This document shows, one piece after another, positions 6,845 to 32,459 of a stretch of 32,600 nt of DNA (its first letter is position 1; the number at the start of each line of letters is the position of its first letter). A program made the position numbers and the translations under genes. The notes under the pieces are model-generated. The model was given only the letters and a program-made list of their open reading frames with translations, had not been told where the DNA came from and ran no database searches. This stretch comes from a candidate division FCPU426 bacterium (GTDB lineage: Bacteria > Oederibacteriota > Muellerivitia > Muellerivitales > Muellerivitaceae): positions 1 to 32,600 of the forward strand of contig DAIDGV010000022.1 of the NCBI GenBank assembly GCA_027452205.1, in the 5' to 3' direction.

Positions 6845-6941
6845 GTCTATGACGGATAGCAGAATCTATCCGGTTGGGGTTGGGTAGATTGTCTCATCCG
6901 GCCTGGGGATCTGAGCCGGAAAGTTAAACCGAGGGGGAGTT

Positions 6942-7907
6942 ATGAAAAAGTTGTATTTGTTATTCGTCTTCTTATTCCTCATTCTGGGCTGGACGACCCA
7001 AGCCCATGCCGAAGATGTGGTCTATCTGAAGGACGGCTCGGTCATCCACGGGTCGATCACCGAGGAAGTCCCCGGTGTTTCGGTCAAGATCGAGACCACT
7101 GACGGAAACATATTCGTTTACAGAGTGAAGCAGATTTCCAAGATCACCCATAGCGCCGCGGCAGCACCGGCCGCCGAGGATCAAGCGCCTGAGAGCGACA
7201 CGACCGTGGTTGTGGTCAAGCACCACCGTCCGGCGCGCATTAGCGACTGGAAGGCCGATCCGAACGCCAGCTTCTCCGTTGGTTCGATCTACTTCGGTGT
7301 GGGATTGGCCTCCGCGGGGGTCGTGGACCAGTACAACACCCTTTTGAACAACATCGGGGCAAACGCCTATAACTTCACTCCCCTGGTCTACTCGGGGGAT
7401 ATCGGGGTGGGCTGGTTCACCAATCATATCGGCCTGAAATGGACCGGTACCTATGCCTTCAACTGGGATTACGAACAAACCGATTACTACTATGGCGGCT
7501 ATTACATCGGCAGCACCTATATCAATAACTTTATCGACATGTACGGTTCTGAGTTGGAATTGGACCTGTCCTTGGACGATGTCCAAACTTCCGCTTCGCG
7601 GCCCAACGCGCGCCGGGTCTTCTCGGTCTATGTTCCGATCATCGTGGGGTTCTGGGCGGTGGATTTCGTCAACGAGAATACCGGTTATGACTGGTACGGC
7701 ACCACGACGGATTTTGGCAGCGGTCTAGGACTCCGCTTTTTGAGCGAAGATCACTGGATGTTCGATATGAACTTCATCTACCGTGGGGATAATCCGGGAA
7801 CTTTGAAGAATAGCACTTATGGCAATCTTCCGTTGCTCAACGGCAAGAACATGACCGCGGACGTGAGCGGTTTTGCTGCCAACTTCAATTTTGGGCTGAC
7901 CTTCTAG
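6942..7907 (+). CDS. Probable outer-membrane beta-barrel protein with YLKDGS-x-IHG domain (paralogue 2)
   Basis: 321 residues. The signal peptide ends AHA|ED (cut after 23). Residues 25-70 repeat the domain of the preceding gene (DVVYLKDGSVIHG...GNIFVYRVKQISKITH). A short Ala/Pro linker leads to about 230 residues rich in aromatic and Gly residues with alternating strand patterns. It ends in Phe (NFNFGLTF), the usual C-terminal signature of outer-membrane barrels. The aromatic stretch near 180-200 (YEQTDYYYGGYYIG) fits an exposed loop. A GAGGGGGAG ribosome site is present. The shared domain suggests the two neighbours interact or arose by duplication and fusion. Specific function unknown. Confidence 0.8.
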   Translation: MKKLYLLFVFLFLILGWTTQAHAEDVVYLKDGSVIHGSITEEVPGVSVKIETTDGNIFVYRVKQISKITHSAAAAPAAEDQAPESDTTVVVVKHHRPARISDWKADPNASFSVGSIYFGVGLASAGVVDQYNTLLNNIGANAYNFTPLVYSGDIGVGWFTNHIGLKWTGTYAFNWDYEQTDYYYGGYYIGSTYINNFIDMYGSELELDLSLDDVQTSASRPNARRVFSVYVPIIVGFWAVDFVNENTGYDWYGTTTDFGSGLGLRFLSEDHWMFDMNFIYRGDNPGTLKNSTYGNLPLLNGKNMTADVSGFAANFNFGLTF

Positions 7908-28272: not shown

Positions 28273-28932
28273 TCAGTCTTTTTCCCTTTGATCGACCAGG
28301 GCCTGGACGCTTTTGACCGTGATCTTGCCCCGGGTGCTCACCACCAGACCCTCCGCTTCCAGCCGGGCGAAGGTGCGGATGCAGGTCTCCACGGTAGTGC
28401 CGACCATCTCGGCGATCTCCCGGCGGGTCAGGGGGATGGTGTTGCCGAATTCCTCGACCAAGCTCACCAGGATATGAAGGACGCGTTTCTCCACGGTCTC
28501 CTGCTCAAAGGTCTGCATATCCTTGGATTGGCGCAGGCGGTTGGAGAGTTGCAACACCAGGGCCTTGGAGACCTCGGGGTTCTTATCCATTACCTCGGTG
28601 AAATCCCGGATGGGAATGGAGACCACGACGGAGTCGGTCTCGGCCACGCAGTGACAAGCGTAACTGCCGGCGCCGAAACAACAGCAGGTGCCGAAAAGGT
28701 TGTTGCTGCCGACCATGCAAAGGGTCTGGTCCTTGCCATTGGCACTATGGACCATGGATTTGATGTGGCCTTCCTTGATGAACCAGACATGCTCCGCGGG
28801 ATCCCCTTCGAAGAAGATCGAATCCCCTTTGGCGTATTTTTTCTCGACCATTTTTCGTTCCAAGGCGCCAAGCTCGGCGGGAGTCAATTTTTTGAAGATC
28901 TCCAAAGTGGAAAGAAAGGACTGGGTCGTCAT
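28273..28932 (-). CDS. Crp/Fnr-family regulator with a cysteine cluster (paralogue 1)
   Basis: 219 residues from the ATG at 28932, with GGAG 8 bases upstream; a longer frame to 29013 lacks a ribosome site. The cyclic-nucleotide-type beta-barrel covers 10-115, the dimer helix about 115-140 and the winged helix 145-210 with IPLTRREIAEMVGTTVETCIRTF, keeping the Glu and Arg that read the TGA core in CRP/FNR. The phosphate-binding cassette, normally GE...RSA, is FGTCCCFGAGSYACHC: no cAMP Glu or Arg, but Cys83, 84, 85, 93 and 95 plus Cys72. It is therefore unlikely to sense cAMP; a redox, NO or metal signal is inferred. A matching binding site in its own promoter suggests autoregulation. Confidence 0.9.
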   Translation of the reverse strand: MTTQSFLSTLEIFKKLTPAELGALERKMVEKKYAKGDSIFFEGDPAEHVWFIKEGHIKSMVHSANGKDQTLCMVGSNNLFGTCCCFGAGSYACHCVAETDSVVVSIPIRDFTEVMDKNPEVSKALVLQLSNRLRQSKDMQTFEQETVEKRVLHILVSLVEEFGNTIPLTRREIAEMVGTTVETCIRTFARLEAEGLVVSTRGKITVKSVQALVDQREKD

Positions 28933-28986: not shown

Positions 28987-29028
28987 AGCATAGAAGGGCG
29001 GGGGTCCGATCAATATGAGCTATGTCAC
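28987..29028 (-). promoter_or_regulatory. Fnr-type site and -10 of crp1
   Basis: On the minus strand GTGAC-ATAG-CTCAT (29028 to 29015), centre 29021.5. TATGCT (28992 to 28987) would be the -10 of a start at 28980, placing the site at exactly -41.5 (class II geometry). The same site also reads as CRP-like TGTGA-N6-TCATA. Confidence 0.55.
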
Positions 29029-29076
29029 ATTGAAAAAAGGGGAACCTTATTTGGTGTTTTTCCAGCGGGAAGGACC

Positions 29077-29118
29077 ATGACTATGGTCATAACTTGCGGG
29101 AAAATAAGACCTTACATT
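29077..29118 (+). promoter_or_regulatory. Fnr-type site and -10 of the phosphoribosyltransferase gene
   Basis: ATGAC-TATG-GTCAT (29077-29090), a perfect inverted repeat with centre 29083.5. TACATT (29113-29118) matches 4 of 6 positions of TATAAT and predicts a start at 29125, so the site is at -41.5. Confidence 0.6.
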
Positions 29119-29154
29119 TACAGGGAGAAAGCTTGAACGCAGAGGGAGAGTGTC

Positions 29155-29817
29155 ATGGTCCAGTTCGCGTGGGAAAAACCTTTTTTCAAGGACCGTCAAG
29201 AGGCGGCCCAAATCTTGATCGGTAAATTGTCCGGTTACCGGGGTACGAATCCCCTGGTGTTGGCCATTCCCCGGGGGGGAGTGGAAATGGGATGGATGAT
29301 CGCCGAGGCCCTGAAGGGTGACCTGGACCTGGCCCTGGTCCATAAGATCGGCATGCCCGATCAACCTGAGTTCGCCATCGGCGCCGTAGGCGAGAACGGC
29401 GTTTCTTTCATGGTGTCCTATCTGCCGTCCTTGAATATCCCGGAGAGCTGGATCCGGGAAGAGGTGAAAAGGCAAATGGGCCATTTGCGGGAACAGCGAA
29501 AACTGTATTACGGCAACCATCCCCGGATCAGCACGGCGGACCGAACGGTCATCATCGTGGATGACGGCATTGCCACGGGTTCCACTGCGCTGGCGGCGGT
29601 CCGGAGCGCGGCGGCGGAATTCCCCAAACGCATCGTGGTGGCCTCGCCGGTCATCCCGCCGGATACCCTGGAGCTGATCCACCGGGAGGCCGACGAGGTG
29701 GTCGTGATCGCGGCCCCGAAGGAATTCAAAGCGGTGAGCGATTTTTACGAGAAATTCCCGGAGGTGTCCGACAAAACGGTGGCGACCCTGATGAGCCGTA
29801 GGCCGGTCGTTTCCTAG
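29155..29817 (+). CDS. Phosphoribosyltransferase-fold protein
   Basis: 220 residues, type I PRTase fold. The PRPP-binding loop TVIIVDDGIATGST (131-144) is intact, and an early PRGGVEMG (39-46) matches the family's N-terminal loop. The helical hood DLALVHKIGMPDQPEFAIGAVGENG (in parts) is typical of the stand-alone PRTases found in stress and dormancy gene sets. The reaction and base substrate are unknown. An Fnr-type site lies at -41.5 of its promoter, and GGGAG precedes the ATG. Its TAG stop shares the CTAG at 29814-29817 with the stop of the convergent thioredoxin-like gene. Confidence 0.88.
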   Translation: MVQFAWEKPFFKDRQEAAQILIGKLSGYRGTNPLVLAIPRGGVEMGWMIAEALKGDLDLALVHKIGMPDQPEFAIGAVGENGVSFMVSYLPSLNIPESWIREEVKRQMGHLREQRKLYYGNHPRISTADRTVIIVDDGIATGSTALAAVRSAAAEFPKRIVVASPVIPPDTLELIHREADEVVVIAAPKEFKAVSDFYEKFPEVSDKTVATLMSRRPVVS

Positions 29818-30137
29818 GCGCGGAGTTGGGAAGAGGCGAGGAGCATTTTTTCGACCCGGTTGGCGCCGGTGAAGGCCTTGAGAATCCGGCCCTGATGGAA
29901 CAGGCAGAGGGTCGGTAAGTCGTGAATGCGGTGAAAAAGGACGATGTCCAAAAGCTTGGAGACATCGGCATAGACCAAGCGCACCGGGCGGCCAAAGGCC
30001 CGGTTCAAACTGATGGCCAATTCATTACTGATGACGGTCCTTTGGTCCGGGGCCTGGAAATCCACCAGGACGGGGCCCTGGGCCTGCACCACTTGGGTCT
30101 GCCAGGTATCGCGGTTCAGTTCTTGGAAGGGCGTCAT
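29814..30137 (-). CDS. Thioredoxin-fold protein lacking the CxxC active site
   Basis: 107 residues, full thioredoxin length. VLVDFQAP (23-30) and the cis-proline region IHDLPTLCLFHQG (71-83, Pro75) align with thioredoxin, but the WCGPC position reads D-Q-R-T-V (31-35). It cannot act as a dithiol reductase. It may be a chaperone-like, binding or adaptor protein (inference). It is the last gene of the response regulator-crp2-orf67-trx series, 6 bases after orf67, and its stop overlaps that of the convergent PRTase. Confidence 0.85.
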   Translation of the reverse strand: MTPFQELNRDTWQTQVVQAQGPVLVDFQAPDQRTVISNELAISLNRAFGRPVRLVYADVSKLLDIVLFHRIHDLPTLCLFHQGRILKAFTGANRVEKMLLASSQLRA

Positions 30138-30143
30138 GGCCGT

Positions 30144-30347
30144 TTACCGGGAAGCTTGCCGCCAGGACTGCGTGGATCCGTTGTCCTTGCGAAAATTTTG
30201 ATGGGAACGATGAGCGGCCTGGAACAAAGGGTTCAATCCTTTGACCTCGGTCCGGTTCCAGGAGATGGCGTTGTCGCCATTGAAGGGGGCCGATGAATGA
30301 AAAAACCTTTGGTAAAGGGAAGGGCGGGCTTTTGCGAAGGTTTGCAT
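30144..30347 (-). CDS. Small basic protein of unknown function (orf67)
   Basis: 67 residues, basic, with an Arg/Asn/His/Ser-rich composition and no signal peptide or membrane segment. The case for a gene is its position: it starts 10 bases after the crp2 stop and ends 6 bases before the thioredoxin-like start, in the same tight spacing as the rest of the operon. Against it: only a weak ribosome site (GGAA) and no recognised family. It could be untranslated spacer. Confidence 0.4.
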   Translation of the reverse strand: MQTFAKARPSLYQRFFHSSAPFNGDNAISWNRTEVKGLNPLFQAAHRSHQNFRKDNGSTQSWRQASR

Positions 30348-30357
30348 GACCGTTCCG

Positions 30358-31068
30358 TTATTTGTTCTCTAAGCGGTTCATCAATAATTGGACGTCCTTG
30401 ATGGTGATCTTACCGCGGGTGGAGGAAACCAAACCCTCTTCTTCCAAATGGATGAAGGTGCGGATGCTGGTCTCGACGGTGGTGCCGGACATCTCGGCGA
30501 TCTCCCGGCGGGTCAAGGGAATGGTCTTTCCGAATTCCTTCACCAGGTTCACCAATACGTGGAGGATGCGGGTCTCAACGGGTTCCTGCTCGAAGGTCTG
30601 CATGTCCTTGGATTGGCGAAGGCGGTCCGAAAGGGTGCGGACCAGGACCGCTCCGATCTCGGGATACTTGCCCAGCAGGGCCATGAAATCCGTCATCGGG
30701 ATGGAGACAACGACCGTATCGGTCTCGGCCATGCTGTTACAGGGATATTGGCCCTGGCCGAAAGCGCAGCAACTTCCGAACATGCTTTTTGGCCCGGTCA
30801 TGCAAAGGGTCTGGCAGCGGCCCGAGGGATTATTGTGCATGGCCTTCACATAACCTTCCTTGACGAACCAAACGGAGTCGGCGCTGTCCCCTTCGGAAAA
30901 GATGGCTTGGTGCTTGTTGAAGTGTTTTTCCACCATGTGGCGTTCAATGTCGGCCAGGGCCAGGGCGGGCAATTTGCGGAACATGTCCATTGTTCCCAAG
31001 AAGCTCTTGGGCGCGTTCTTCATCATCGCGATCTTCGACATCAGCGGTTTGTTGGTCATGGTCAACAT
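30358..31068 (-). CDS. Crp/Fnr-family regulator with a cysteine cluster (paralogue 2)
   Basis: 236 residues; GGAGG lies 5 bases before the ATG. Domain order as in paralogue 1, with a 17-residue N-terminal extension. Its cassette reads FGSCCAFGQGQYPCNS, again without the cAMP Glu and Arg. Four cysteines line up with paralogue 1: Cys89 (Cys72), Cys100 (83), Cys101 (84) and Cys110 (93). The recognition helix GTTVETSIRTF is nearly identical to paralogue 1, so both should read the same DNA word. It is cotranscribed with the response regulator (10 bases apart). Confidence 0.9.
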   Translation of the reverse strand: MLTMTNKPLMSKIAMMKNAPKSFLGTMDMFRKLPALALADIERHMVEKHFNKHQAIFSEGDSADSVWFVKEGYVKAMHNNPSGRCQTLCMTGPKSMFGSCCAFGQGQYPCNSMAETDTVVVSIPMTDFMALLGKYPEIGAVLVRTLSDRLRQSKDMQTFEQEPVETRILHVLVNLVKEFGKTIPLTRREIAEMSGTTVETSIRTFIHLEEEGLVSSTRGKITIKDVQLLMNRLENK

Positions 31069-31078
31069 AAGGGCCTCC

Positions 31079-31495
31079 TCAAGATACGGTGTTCGACTTC
31101 ACGGCTGACGGGCCGTCCGTGCCCTTCCGGCGGAGGAAGCTCCCAACGATGGCCGGAAGAGCCTTCGTATCGATGGGTTTGTGGATATATTCATCGCAAC
31201 CGGCCGCCCAGGCCCGGTCCTCGTCACCCTTTTGGGAATAGGAAGTGACGATCACGATGGGAATATCCTTGAATTGGGGTTTCGCTTTGATCTGGCGCGT
31301 CAGTTCCACGCCGTCCACGTCGGGCAATTGGAGATCCATTAGGATGAGCTCGGGTTGGAAGTCCTGGAGCAGACTCAATGCCTCCGAAGCGCTATGGGCG
31401 ATCCGGACCTTATAGGCCTCCACCTCCAGCACCAGCTTCTCCAACTTCAGGTTCATGGGATTGTCATCGATGATCAGAACCGGTTCGCCCGACAT
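31079..31495 (-). CDS. Receiver-only response regulator
   Basis: 138 residues from the ATG at 31495 (GGAGG 5 bases upstream); a longer frame to 31639 covers its promoter and is rejected. Receiver domain complete: acidic Asp10/11 (LIIDDNP), phospho-acceptor Asp54 (LILMDLQLPDVDG), Thr84 (VIVTSYS) and Lys106 (YIHKPID). No output domain follows beyond about 122, so it works by protein contact (CheY/Spo0F/DivK-like). No histidine kinase is in the window. It is first gene of the operon with crp2, orf67 and the thioredoxin-like gene. Confidence 0.9.
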   Translation of the reverse strand: MSGEPVLIIDDNPMNLKLEKLVLEVEAYKVRIAHSASEALSLLQDFQPELILMDLQLPDVDGVELTRQIKAKPQFKDIPIVIVTSYSQKGDEDRAWAAGCDEYIHKPIDTKALPAIVGSFLRRKGTDGPSAVKSNTVS

Positions 31496-31579
31496 ATTGC
31501 CCTCCAAGTTTCGCCGCGGAACTGCCGCGACAACCTTAAATAGAGCAAGCCGGATGCCAGAAGTGGGACCTGGAATAAC

Positions 31580-31659
31580 ATTATATTTCTGGGAAAAAAA
31601 GGCTGAGAAGACCGAATTAGGGTGTCGGCGCCATAACAACTATGGTATTGGCGCCATAG
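31580..31659 (-). promoter_or_regulatory. Promoter of the response-regulator operon with repeated palindromic elements
   Basis: A perfect TATAAT (31585 to 31580, minus strand) with no -35 box at the proper spacing, suggesting an activator-dependent promoter. Upstream, GGCGCCATA occurs twice (31627-31635 and 31650-31658), 23 bases start to start. The inverted repeats CCATA-N5-TATGG (31631-31645) and CTATGG-N8-CCATAG (31640-31659) overlap them. No clear Fnr-type site was found here. Confidence 0.5.
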
Positions 31660-31671
31660 CCGCTAGGGCAT

Positions 31672-31702
31672 AAAAAAAAGGCCCCGGTTTTGGACCGGAG
31701 CC
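31672..31702 (-). terminator. Intrinsic terminator of the Hsp20 gene
   Basis: On the minus strand, GGCTCCGGT pairs with ACCGGGGCC around a 5-base loop, followed by eight T. It lies 20 bases after the Hsp20 stop. Confidence 0.9.
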
Positions 31703-31722
31703 TCTTTTGAACGGAGAAAAGG

Positions 31723-32190
31723 TCATCCGACCTTGATCTCAACGGTTTTGGATTGGGTCTCCTCGCTCTTGGGAACGGTCACGCTCAGCACGCCGTCCTT
31801 GAAAGCGGCCTCCACCTTATCCGCCTTGATCCCATCGGGAAGAACGAAACTGCGCTGAAAAGAGCCGTAATAGCTTTCCAGACGGTGGAATTTCTGCCCT
31901 TCGGTCTTCTTTTCCTCTTTTTTCTCGCCCGTGAGGGTGATCACATTCTTATTGATGGTGATCTTGATGTCTTCCTTCTTCATACCCGGTATCTCGGCGC
32001 GGATGGAATAATCCTTCGGTGTTTCCGAGATATCAACCGCCGGGAAAAGCTCCCCCCCGGTCATGGGGAATTCCCAATCCTTGGGCATATCCAGGAAATT
32101 CTCGAAGGCTTGTTGGATATTCCGGTCCCAGCCAAAGGGCCGCCATAACGATAACTTCTTCTCTTGTCCATTGGTCTTCACTAGGGCCAT
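31723..32190 (-). CDS. Hsp20 small heat-shock protein
   Basis: 155 residues from the ATG at 32190 (GGAGG 6 bases upstream); the frame to 32253 has no ribosome site. The N-terminal arm (1-48) precedes an alpha-crystallin domain (about 49-142) with VDISETPKDYSIRAEIPGMKKEDI (in parts), ITLTGEKKEEK and AAFKDGVLSVTVPK. The C-terminal EIKVG holds an I-x-V anchor motif used in oligomer assembly. It is an ATP-independent holdase for unfolding proteins, and sits in the redox/stress island. Its own promoter was not resolved; the Fnr-type site at 32320 points away from it. Confidence 0.95.
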   Translation of the reverse strand: MALVKTNGQEKKLSLWRPFGWDRNIQQAFENFLDMPKDWEFPMTGGELFPAVDISETPKDYSIRAEIPGMKKEDIKITINKNVITLTGEKKEEKKTEGQKFHRLESYYGSFQRSFVLPDGIKADKVEAAFKDGVLSVTVPKSEETQSKTVEIKVG

Positions 32191-32319
32191 AAGGCACCTC
32201 CTCATCAAAATTAAAATCCTAGATTTAAGATAGGGATCCAGACGGATGGGCACTATGACCTAGGATGGGTTCGGAACCCTTTTTATCGAACGCCCGTTTC
32301 TCCAAGGAAAATGCGAACC

Positions 32320-32361
32320 TTGACCATGGTCATAAAAAGTCCAAGGGTGGGTCCTTAAACT
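32320..32361 (+). promoter_or_regulatory. Fnr-type site and -10 before the structured RNA
   Basis: TTGAC-CATG-GTCAT (32320-32333), centre 32326.5. TAAACT at 32356-32361 matches 4 of 6 of TATAAT and predicts a start at 32368: site at -41.5, with the transcript opening in the first stem of the RNA below. Confidence 0.6.
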
Positions 32362-32365
32362 TCAA

Positions 32366-32459
32366 GGAGAAGGGGGATTCTTTATCTGGCACCTTTCTTT
32401 AAGGGTGTTAGCGGGTTCGACCCGACGTAGCGAGAAAAAGAACTCCCCCTTCTTTTTTT
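32366..32459 (+). ncRNA. Candidate small structured RNA or leader (about 92 nt)
   Basis: Three helices fit together. The outer stem GAAGGGGGA (32369-32377) pairs with TCCCCCTTC (32444-32452), extended by further A/G to T pairs. Inside are CACCTTT-CTTT-AAGGGTG (32390-32407) and CGGGT-TCG-ACCCG (32412-32424). A T7 run ends it (32453-32459), so the outer stem doubles as an intrinsic terminator. The predicted transcript start (32368) opens the outer stem. The zinc-ribbon gene begins 17 bases later, so this may be an independent small RNA, or an attenuator read through into that gene. It matches no RNA family I recognise. Confidence 0.45.

Follow-up and report, generated by a model that had tools for sequence, protein, structure and literature searches.

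Three palindromic sites in the window, by which we mean the whole 32,600-nucleotide stretch analyzed here, are with a probability of about 0.85 the operators of a class II activator of the Crp/Fnr family. On this reading, a dimer of Crp1 and/or Crp2 would bind the sequence TATGAC-N4-GTCATA centered at -41.5 and recruit RNA polymerase to promoters whose -10 hexamer is TANNNT. The bound protein would activate crp1 itself, giving positive feedback, and would also activate a phosphoribosyltransferase gene, a small RNA and some 15 to 25 more promoters of genes for iron-center repair, respiratory, redox and stress proteins. The box, its geometry, its restriction to a lineage, the autoregulatory arrangement and the conserved fold of the boxed RNA were each established by computation. 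The window is the whole of contig C22 of a 2.89-Mb genome (G000) that is 99.4% complete, and its features are listed in the table.

Features of the window that bear on the proposed regulon (positions are those of the window)
Feature	Position	Strand	Details	Evidence
Candidate box, fourth and weaker, TATGACGGATAGCAGA	6848..6863	+	followed after 21 nt by TAGATT (6848-6890)
crp1, Crp/Fnr-family regulator	28273..28932	-	219 aa	PF00027, PF13545, alignment, structure model
crp1 promoter -10 hexamer TATGCT	28987..28992	-	predicted start 28980	sequence, geometry test
crp1 promoter box TGTGACATAGCTCATA	29014..29029	-	read 29029-29014; center 29021.5	sequence, model score, orthologues
Phosphoribosyltransferase promoter box CATGACTATGGTCATA	29076..29091	+	center 29083.5	sequence, model score
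Phosphoribosyltransferase promoter -10 hexamer TACATT	29113..29118	+	predicted start 29125	sequence, geometry test
Phosphoribosyltransferase, putative regulon member	29155..29817	+	220 aa	PF00156
crp2, crp1 paralogue	30358..31068	-	near-identical recognition helix	61% identity over 214 aa
Single-domain response regulator	31079..31498	-	upstream of crp2	PF00072
Hsp20, possible weak member	31723..32193	-	below model threshold	PF00011
Small-RNA promoter box CTTGACCATGGTCATA	32319..32334	+	center 32326.5	sequence, model score, RNA homologues
Small-RNA promoter -10 hexamer TAAACT	32356..32361	+	predicted start 32368	sequence
Small RNA, three-way junction	32368..32458	+	outside Rfam	fold z, homologues with covariation

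The original prediction was that three sites sharing NTGAC-N4-(G/C)TCAT each stand before a TATAAT-like hexamer at the same distance, and both the sites and the hexamers were found in place when the sequence was read directly. The spacing between box and hexamer is 21 nt in all three promoters, and the hexamers, all of the form TANNNT and each matching TATAAT at 4 of 6 positions, fall at exactly -12 to -7 when the box center is set to -41.5. A box near -41.5 combined with a sigma-70-type -10 hexamer is the arrangement of a class II Crp/Fnr promoter, and all three have it relative to their predicted starts. We scored the window with a model of box plus -10 hexamer whose training set excluded the window, using 30 Markov resamplings of the window as the null. 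The three promoters ranked first to third in the 32.6 kb with scores of 27.3, 21.5 and 21.2, compared to 17.0 for the best of the resamplings and 14.1 for the next new candidate, the fourth box of the table, which lies 86 nt before an ORF at 6942-7907 and whose score is within the range of the shuffled maxima. Divergent use of the box at 29076 toward crp1 and of that at 32319 toward hsp20 was rejected, neither having a -10 hexamer at the required geometry.

Genome-wide, the three window sites extend to the full box TATGAC-N4-GTCATA. We counted matches with at most one mismatch in G000, in the other members of its eight-genome family and across the phylum, with the reversed motif and the same half-sites around an N6 spacer as controls. 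There were 26 sites in G000 compared to 1 for the reversed motif and 4 for the N6 spacer, and the corresponding counts in the four relatives in which the box is also enriched, out of seven, were 35, 0 and 4 (G001), 16, 1 and 2 (G003), 10, 0 and 1 (G004) and 29, 2 and 3 (G005). Genus g3 of the family has 4 to 7 sites, and elsewhere in the phylum most genomes have 0 to 11, with similar control counts. On these counts the box is confined to part of one FCPU426 family. When proteins closely related to Crp1 were searched for, the loci returned were mostly labeled candidate division FCPU426. G019, of another family in the phylum, has 21 sites compared to 7 for the reversed motif and is without a close Crp1 homologue; it may be an independent case. 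The earlier suggestion of a real, local regulon thus survives in its first part, upheld by the held-out model and the controls, but not in its second, the sites being spread over the genome and the family.

The position of these sites relative to promoters was then compared across genomes. Among 38 intergenic sites with one unambiguous downstream gene, TANNNT occurred at -12 in 37%, compared to a mean of 1.5% over offsets, and -12 was the single best offset. With the window excluded and sites read in both orientations, 24 of the 70 intergenic cases had TANNNT at -12, compared to about 1% at other offsets (binomial p of about 1e-29, a value that assumes independent sites, which those of relatives are not). 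The per-genome results guard against this effect of kinship: the best hexamer offset was -12 separately in G000, G001, G003 and G005. Box sites inside genes showed no -12 peak and no rise in mean hexamer score. These results demonstrate the predicted concentration of sites at -41.5. Genes were called with a home-made procedure based on length and GC3, which can misplace an individual start and hence its distance, and some of the sites labeled as inside genes lie in spurious short ORFs. Since TANNNT stands at -12 of only about one-third of the intergenic sites, part of the sites may work in another way or have arisen by chance.

Crp1 belongs to the Crp/Fnr superfamily by its domains (PF00027, E of 2.4e-20; PF13545, E of 1.3e-14) and by its predicted fold, which matches CRP, GlxR and FNR chains (pLDDT of 81.5); the pTM of the model is 0.56, which leaves the arrangement of the domains unsure. 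As had been claimed, the recognition helices of Crp1 and Crp2 are near-identical when aligned (REIAEMVGTTVETCIRTF and REIAEMSGTTVETSIRTF), making Crp2 a candidate co-regulator of the box, and no box was found in the crp2 promoter. The label "Fnr-type" holds for the family but not for canonical FNR, whose N-terminal cysteine motif carries an oxygen-labile 4Fe-4S cluster. This motif is absent from both proteins, and residues 1 to 71 of Crp1 are free of cysteine. Cysteines are found instead in the beta-roll, at C72, C83, C84 and C93 of Crp1, and are kept in an alignment of 13 proteins of the Crp1/Crp2 subgroup. They lie within or next to the residues aligned to the cAMP phosphate cassette of CRP; the cassette of cAMP-binding CRP (G-E-...-R-S/T-A) is not present in Crp1, in which FGTCCCFGAGSYACH aligns with FGEMSLLDEGERSAS of 4ev0. 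The regulators would respond to low oxygen, to nitric oxide or to redox stress, perceived through these four cysteines of the ligand pocket. A broader proposal, that this FCPU426 subgroup has turned the former cyclic-nucleotide phosphate cassette into a four-cysteine, possibly metal- or Fe-S-containing, sensor of NO, oxygen or redox state, which governs a self-amplifying class II regulon and a family of three-way-junction small RNAs, is tentative and somewhat closer to doubtful than to probable.

We infer from their helix-turn-helix residues that Crp1 and Crp2 bind the box. Where CRP has R-E-T-V-G-R they have V-E-T/S-C/S-I-R, so that V-E-x-x-x-R occupies the positions of R180, E181 and R185 of CRP. 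In a published correlation, regulators that lack R180 have boxes that lack G at position 3, and E181 is paired with A6 (PMC1274295). These residues fit a TATGAC half-site, without G at position 3, which supports binding by Crp1 and Crp2 but does not prove it, and the recognition helix, being common to several paralogues, does not single out the binder. The box and its geometry could thus be real while the binder is another Crp/Fnr paralogue, for example one of those on contigs C17, C8 and C3, and Crp1 and Crp2 are mere neighbors. G000 does encode more homologues of this kind, paralogues without the cysteine set keep VETCIR-type helices, and the genes of some have boxes of their own. We nevertheless consider this unlikely, as box abundance tracks the genomes that have Crp1 orthologues and crp1 stands behind a box in each of the five genera in which it occurs. 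The other four crp1 genes encode products 65 to 73% identical to Crp1, and a box with a -10 hexamer at the class II position precedes each of the five (G000, G005, G001, G003 and G004). Their promoters scored 20.4 to 27.3; the 886 gene starts scored for comparison had a median of -3.2 and a 90th percentile of 19.9, the latter raised because the loci were chosen for boxes. The autoregulatory arrangement is therefore conserved. A close variant of the box, TGTGACTGGCATCACA/TATGACTGGCATCACA, is conserved at three loci (L047 of G004, L048 of G006 and L049 of G002), where it precedes a response-regulator gene in the vicinity of crp homologues.

The genes behind the boxes include nitrosative, respiratory and stress functions, as the original prediction had anticipated. 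ScdA/RIC-type genes, for the repair of iron centers, are among them, with ScdA_N and hemerythrin domains in G000 and homologues in G001, G003 and G005, and relatives of the window phosphoribosyltransferase come after boxed scdA in two other genera (G001 and G003). Other members encode a multihaem NrfB-like cytochrome, ResB, Rieske proteins, c-type cytochromes, hemerythrin, a P-type cation ATPase, radical SAM proteins, an H+-pyrophosphatase, COX2 and a nitroreductase. Fatty acid desaturases, an AAA_33 protein, DnaK and sigma-54 activators are also boxed. This content, from which alone the signal is inferred, fits a regulon for oxygen, nitric-oxide or redox stress. The window genes around the boxes also include one for a thioredoxin-like protein, and the response regulator gene, which has no box here, has a relative in G003 that is preceded by a scoring box. 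Before hsp20 (32220-32260, minus strand) there is a lone half-site, TATGAC at 32254-32259, whose partner is missing, and TATCTT at 32232-32227 has precisely the spacing of a class II -10 hexamer. The interval that separates hsp20 from the response regulator gene contains a TATGGTATT core with GGCGCCATA on both sides (31635-31668).

The third box precedes a small RNA in which a closing helix, also an intrinsic terminator, encloses two hairpins, and which folds far better than shuffled sequences (z of -4.95). Homologues were found in G005 by BLAST (E of 1.7e-5), in G004 with a covariance model of two sequences (E of 1.5e-13) and, with a model of three, in G001 (4.4e-8), in G000 as a second copy (0.006) and in G003 (0.0096), giving six RNAs in G000 and four other genomes. 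The second G000 copy is diverged and boxed (L173:1501-1575, minus strand, equal to G000:C15:19495-19569). Weaker matches on contigs G005:C56 and G001:C13 (E of at least 0.026) were rejected, having no matching box and -10 hexamer. No copy of the RNA was detected in three of the eight family genomes, which all belong to genus g3, or in the rest of the phylum. Although promoter sequence was absent from the models, each of the six RNAs is preceded by a box with a -10-like hexamer at promoter spacing (TAAACT, TATATT, TAGACT with a spacer of 20 nt, TATTCC, which is weak, TATATT and TATCTT); the 20-nt spacer is that of the G004 promoter. In the six-RNA alignment, 93% of cells paired, compared to 27 to 54% for slid structures, a figure that leans toward the structure to which the alignment was fitted; seven pairs were changed on both sides, and single-sequence folds were clearly better than shuffles for four of the six. 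GUAAGAAAAAG is a conserved unpaired segment. Against Rfam 15, the RNA from G000 or G005 gave no match above the gathering score, even at lax thresholds, and matches at 31665-31707 were set aside as terminator-like and low scoring. We conclude that this is a new small RNA family outside Rfam, which may act in trans by pairing with mRNAs, in the manner of FnrS.

That the structure is instead a cis-acting leader or terminator of the downstream gene is improbable. In the window, an ORF of 40 codons does follow it at the contig end (32476-32598, plus strand; lysine rich, with two CxxC pairs, zinc-ribbon-like), but the downstream genes differ at the other RNA loci, and a T run follows the closing helix in the window and G005 while a GC-rich hairpin plus T run comes directly after the RNA in G001, G003 and G004. 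With differing neighbors and terminators after five of the six, the best reading is that of a small RNA in its own right. That common GTCAT/ATGAC words and hexamers picked by eye produced the whole pattern by chance is scarcely credible, for although the observation was post hoc and TGAC-N4-GTCA is found inside genes too, the held-out model, the N6-spacer control and the geometry test contradict it, and the reversed and in-gene controls and the orthologous promoters also speak against it.

Taken together, the original prediction appears largely right but too narrow, the sites probably belonging to a genuine genome-wide stress regulon of these uncultured soil bacteria of candidate division FCPU426. 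Our literature search found no regulon for this uncultured lineage, for which the gain is a defined operator, a fixed promoter geometry and an apparently autoregulated regulator. The member list spans iron-center repair, respiration and protein quality control, and to it come a small-RNA family and a placement of cysteines that is unusual for this widespread superfamily of regulators. Purified protein and reporters in laboratory strains would allow the regulon to be tested although the organism is uncultured.

Three known systems invite comparison. The targets of DosR/DevR of mycobacteria resemble those found here (Hsp20, phosphoribosyltransferase, nitroreductase, cation ATPase and AAA_33 protein), which serves as a lead only, DosR/DevR being a response regulator of a different family and box, without homology to Crp1 or Crp2. 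HcpR1 of delta-proteobacteria recognizes wyTTGACnnnnGTCAArw before nitrosative-stress genes (PMC1274295), and its characteristic targets are hcp and frdX. Compared by box and targets only, the two regulons share a TGAC-N4-GTCA core and nitrosative-stress genes and differ in the outer base, position 3 being A here and not T; hcp was not seen among our boxed targets, and no small RNA was seen in the HcpR1 study (PMC1274295). The box of E. coli FNR is TTGAT-N4-ATCAA, different from TATGAC-N4-GTCATA, its cysteines are N-terminal and not in the beta-roll, and the small RNA here has no Rfam match to FnrS. The likeness to FNR and FnrS lies in the Crp/Fnr fold, in a palindromic box with a 4-nt spacer and in a position that is predominantly class II (-41.5 +/- 4 at 19 of the 23 promoters activated by FNR, and -42.5 at fnrS; PMC3688515), and it extends to an activator that drives a small-RNA gene, as is predicted here from sequence.
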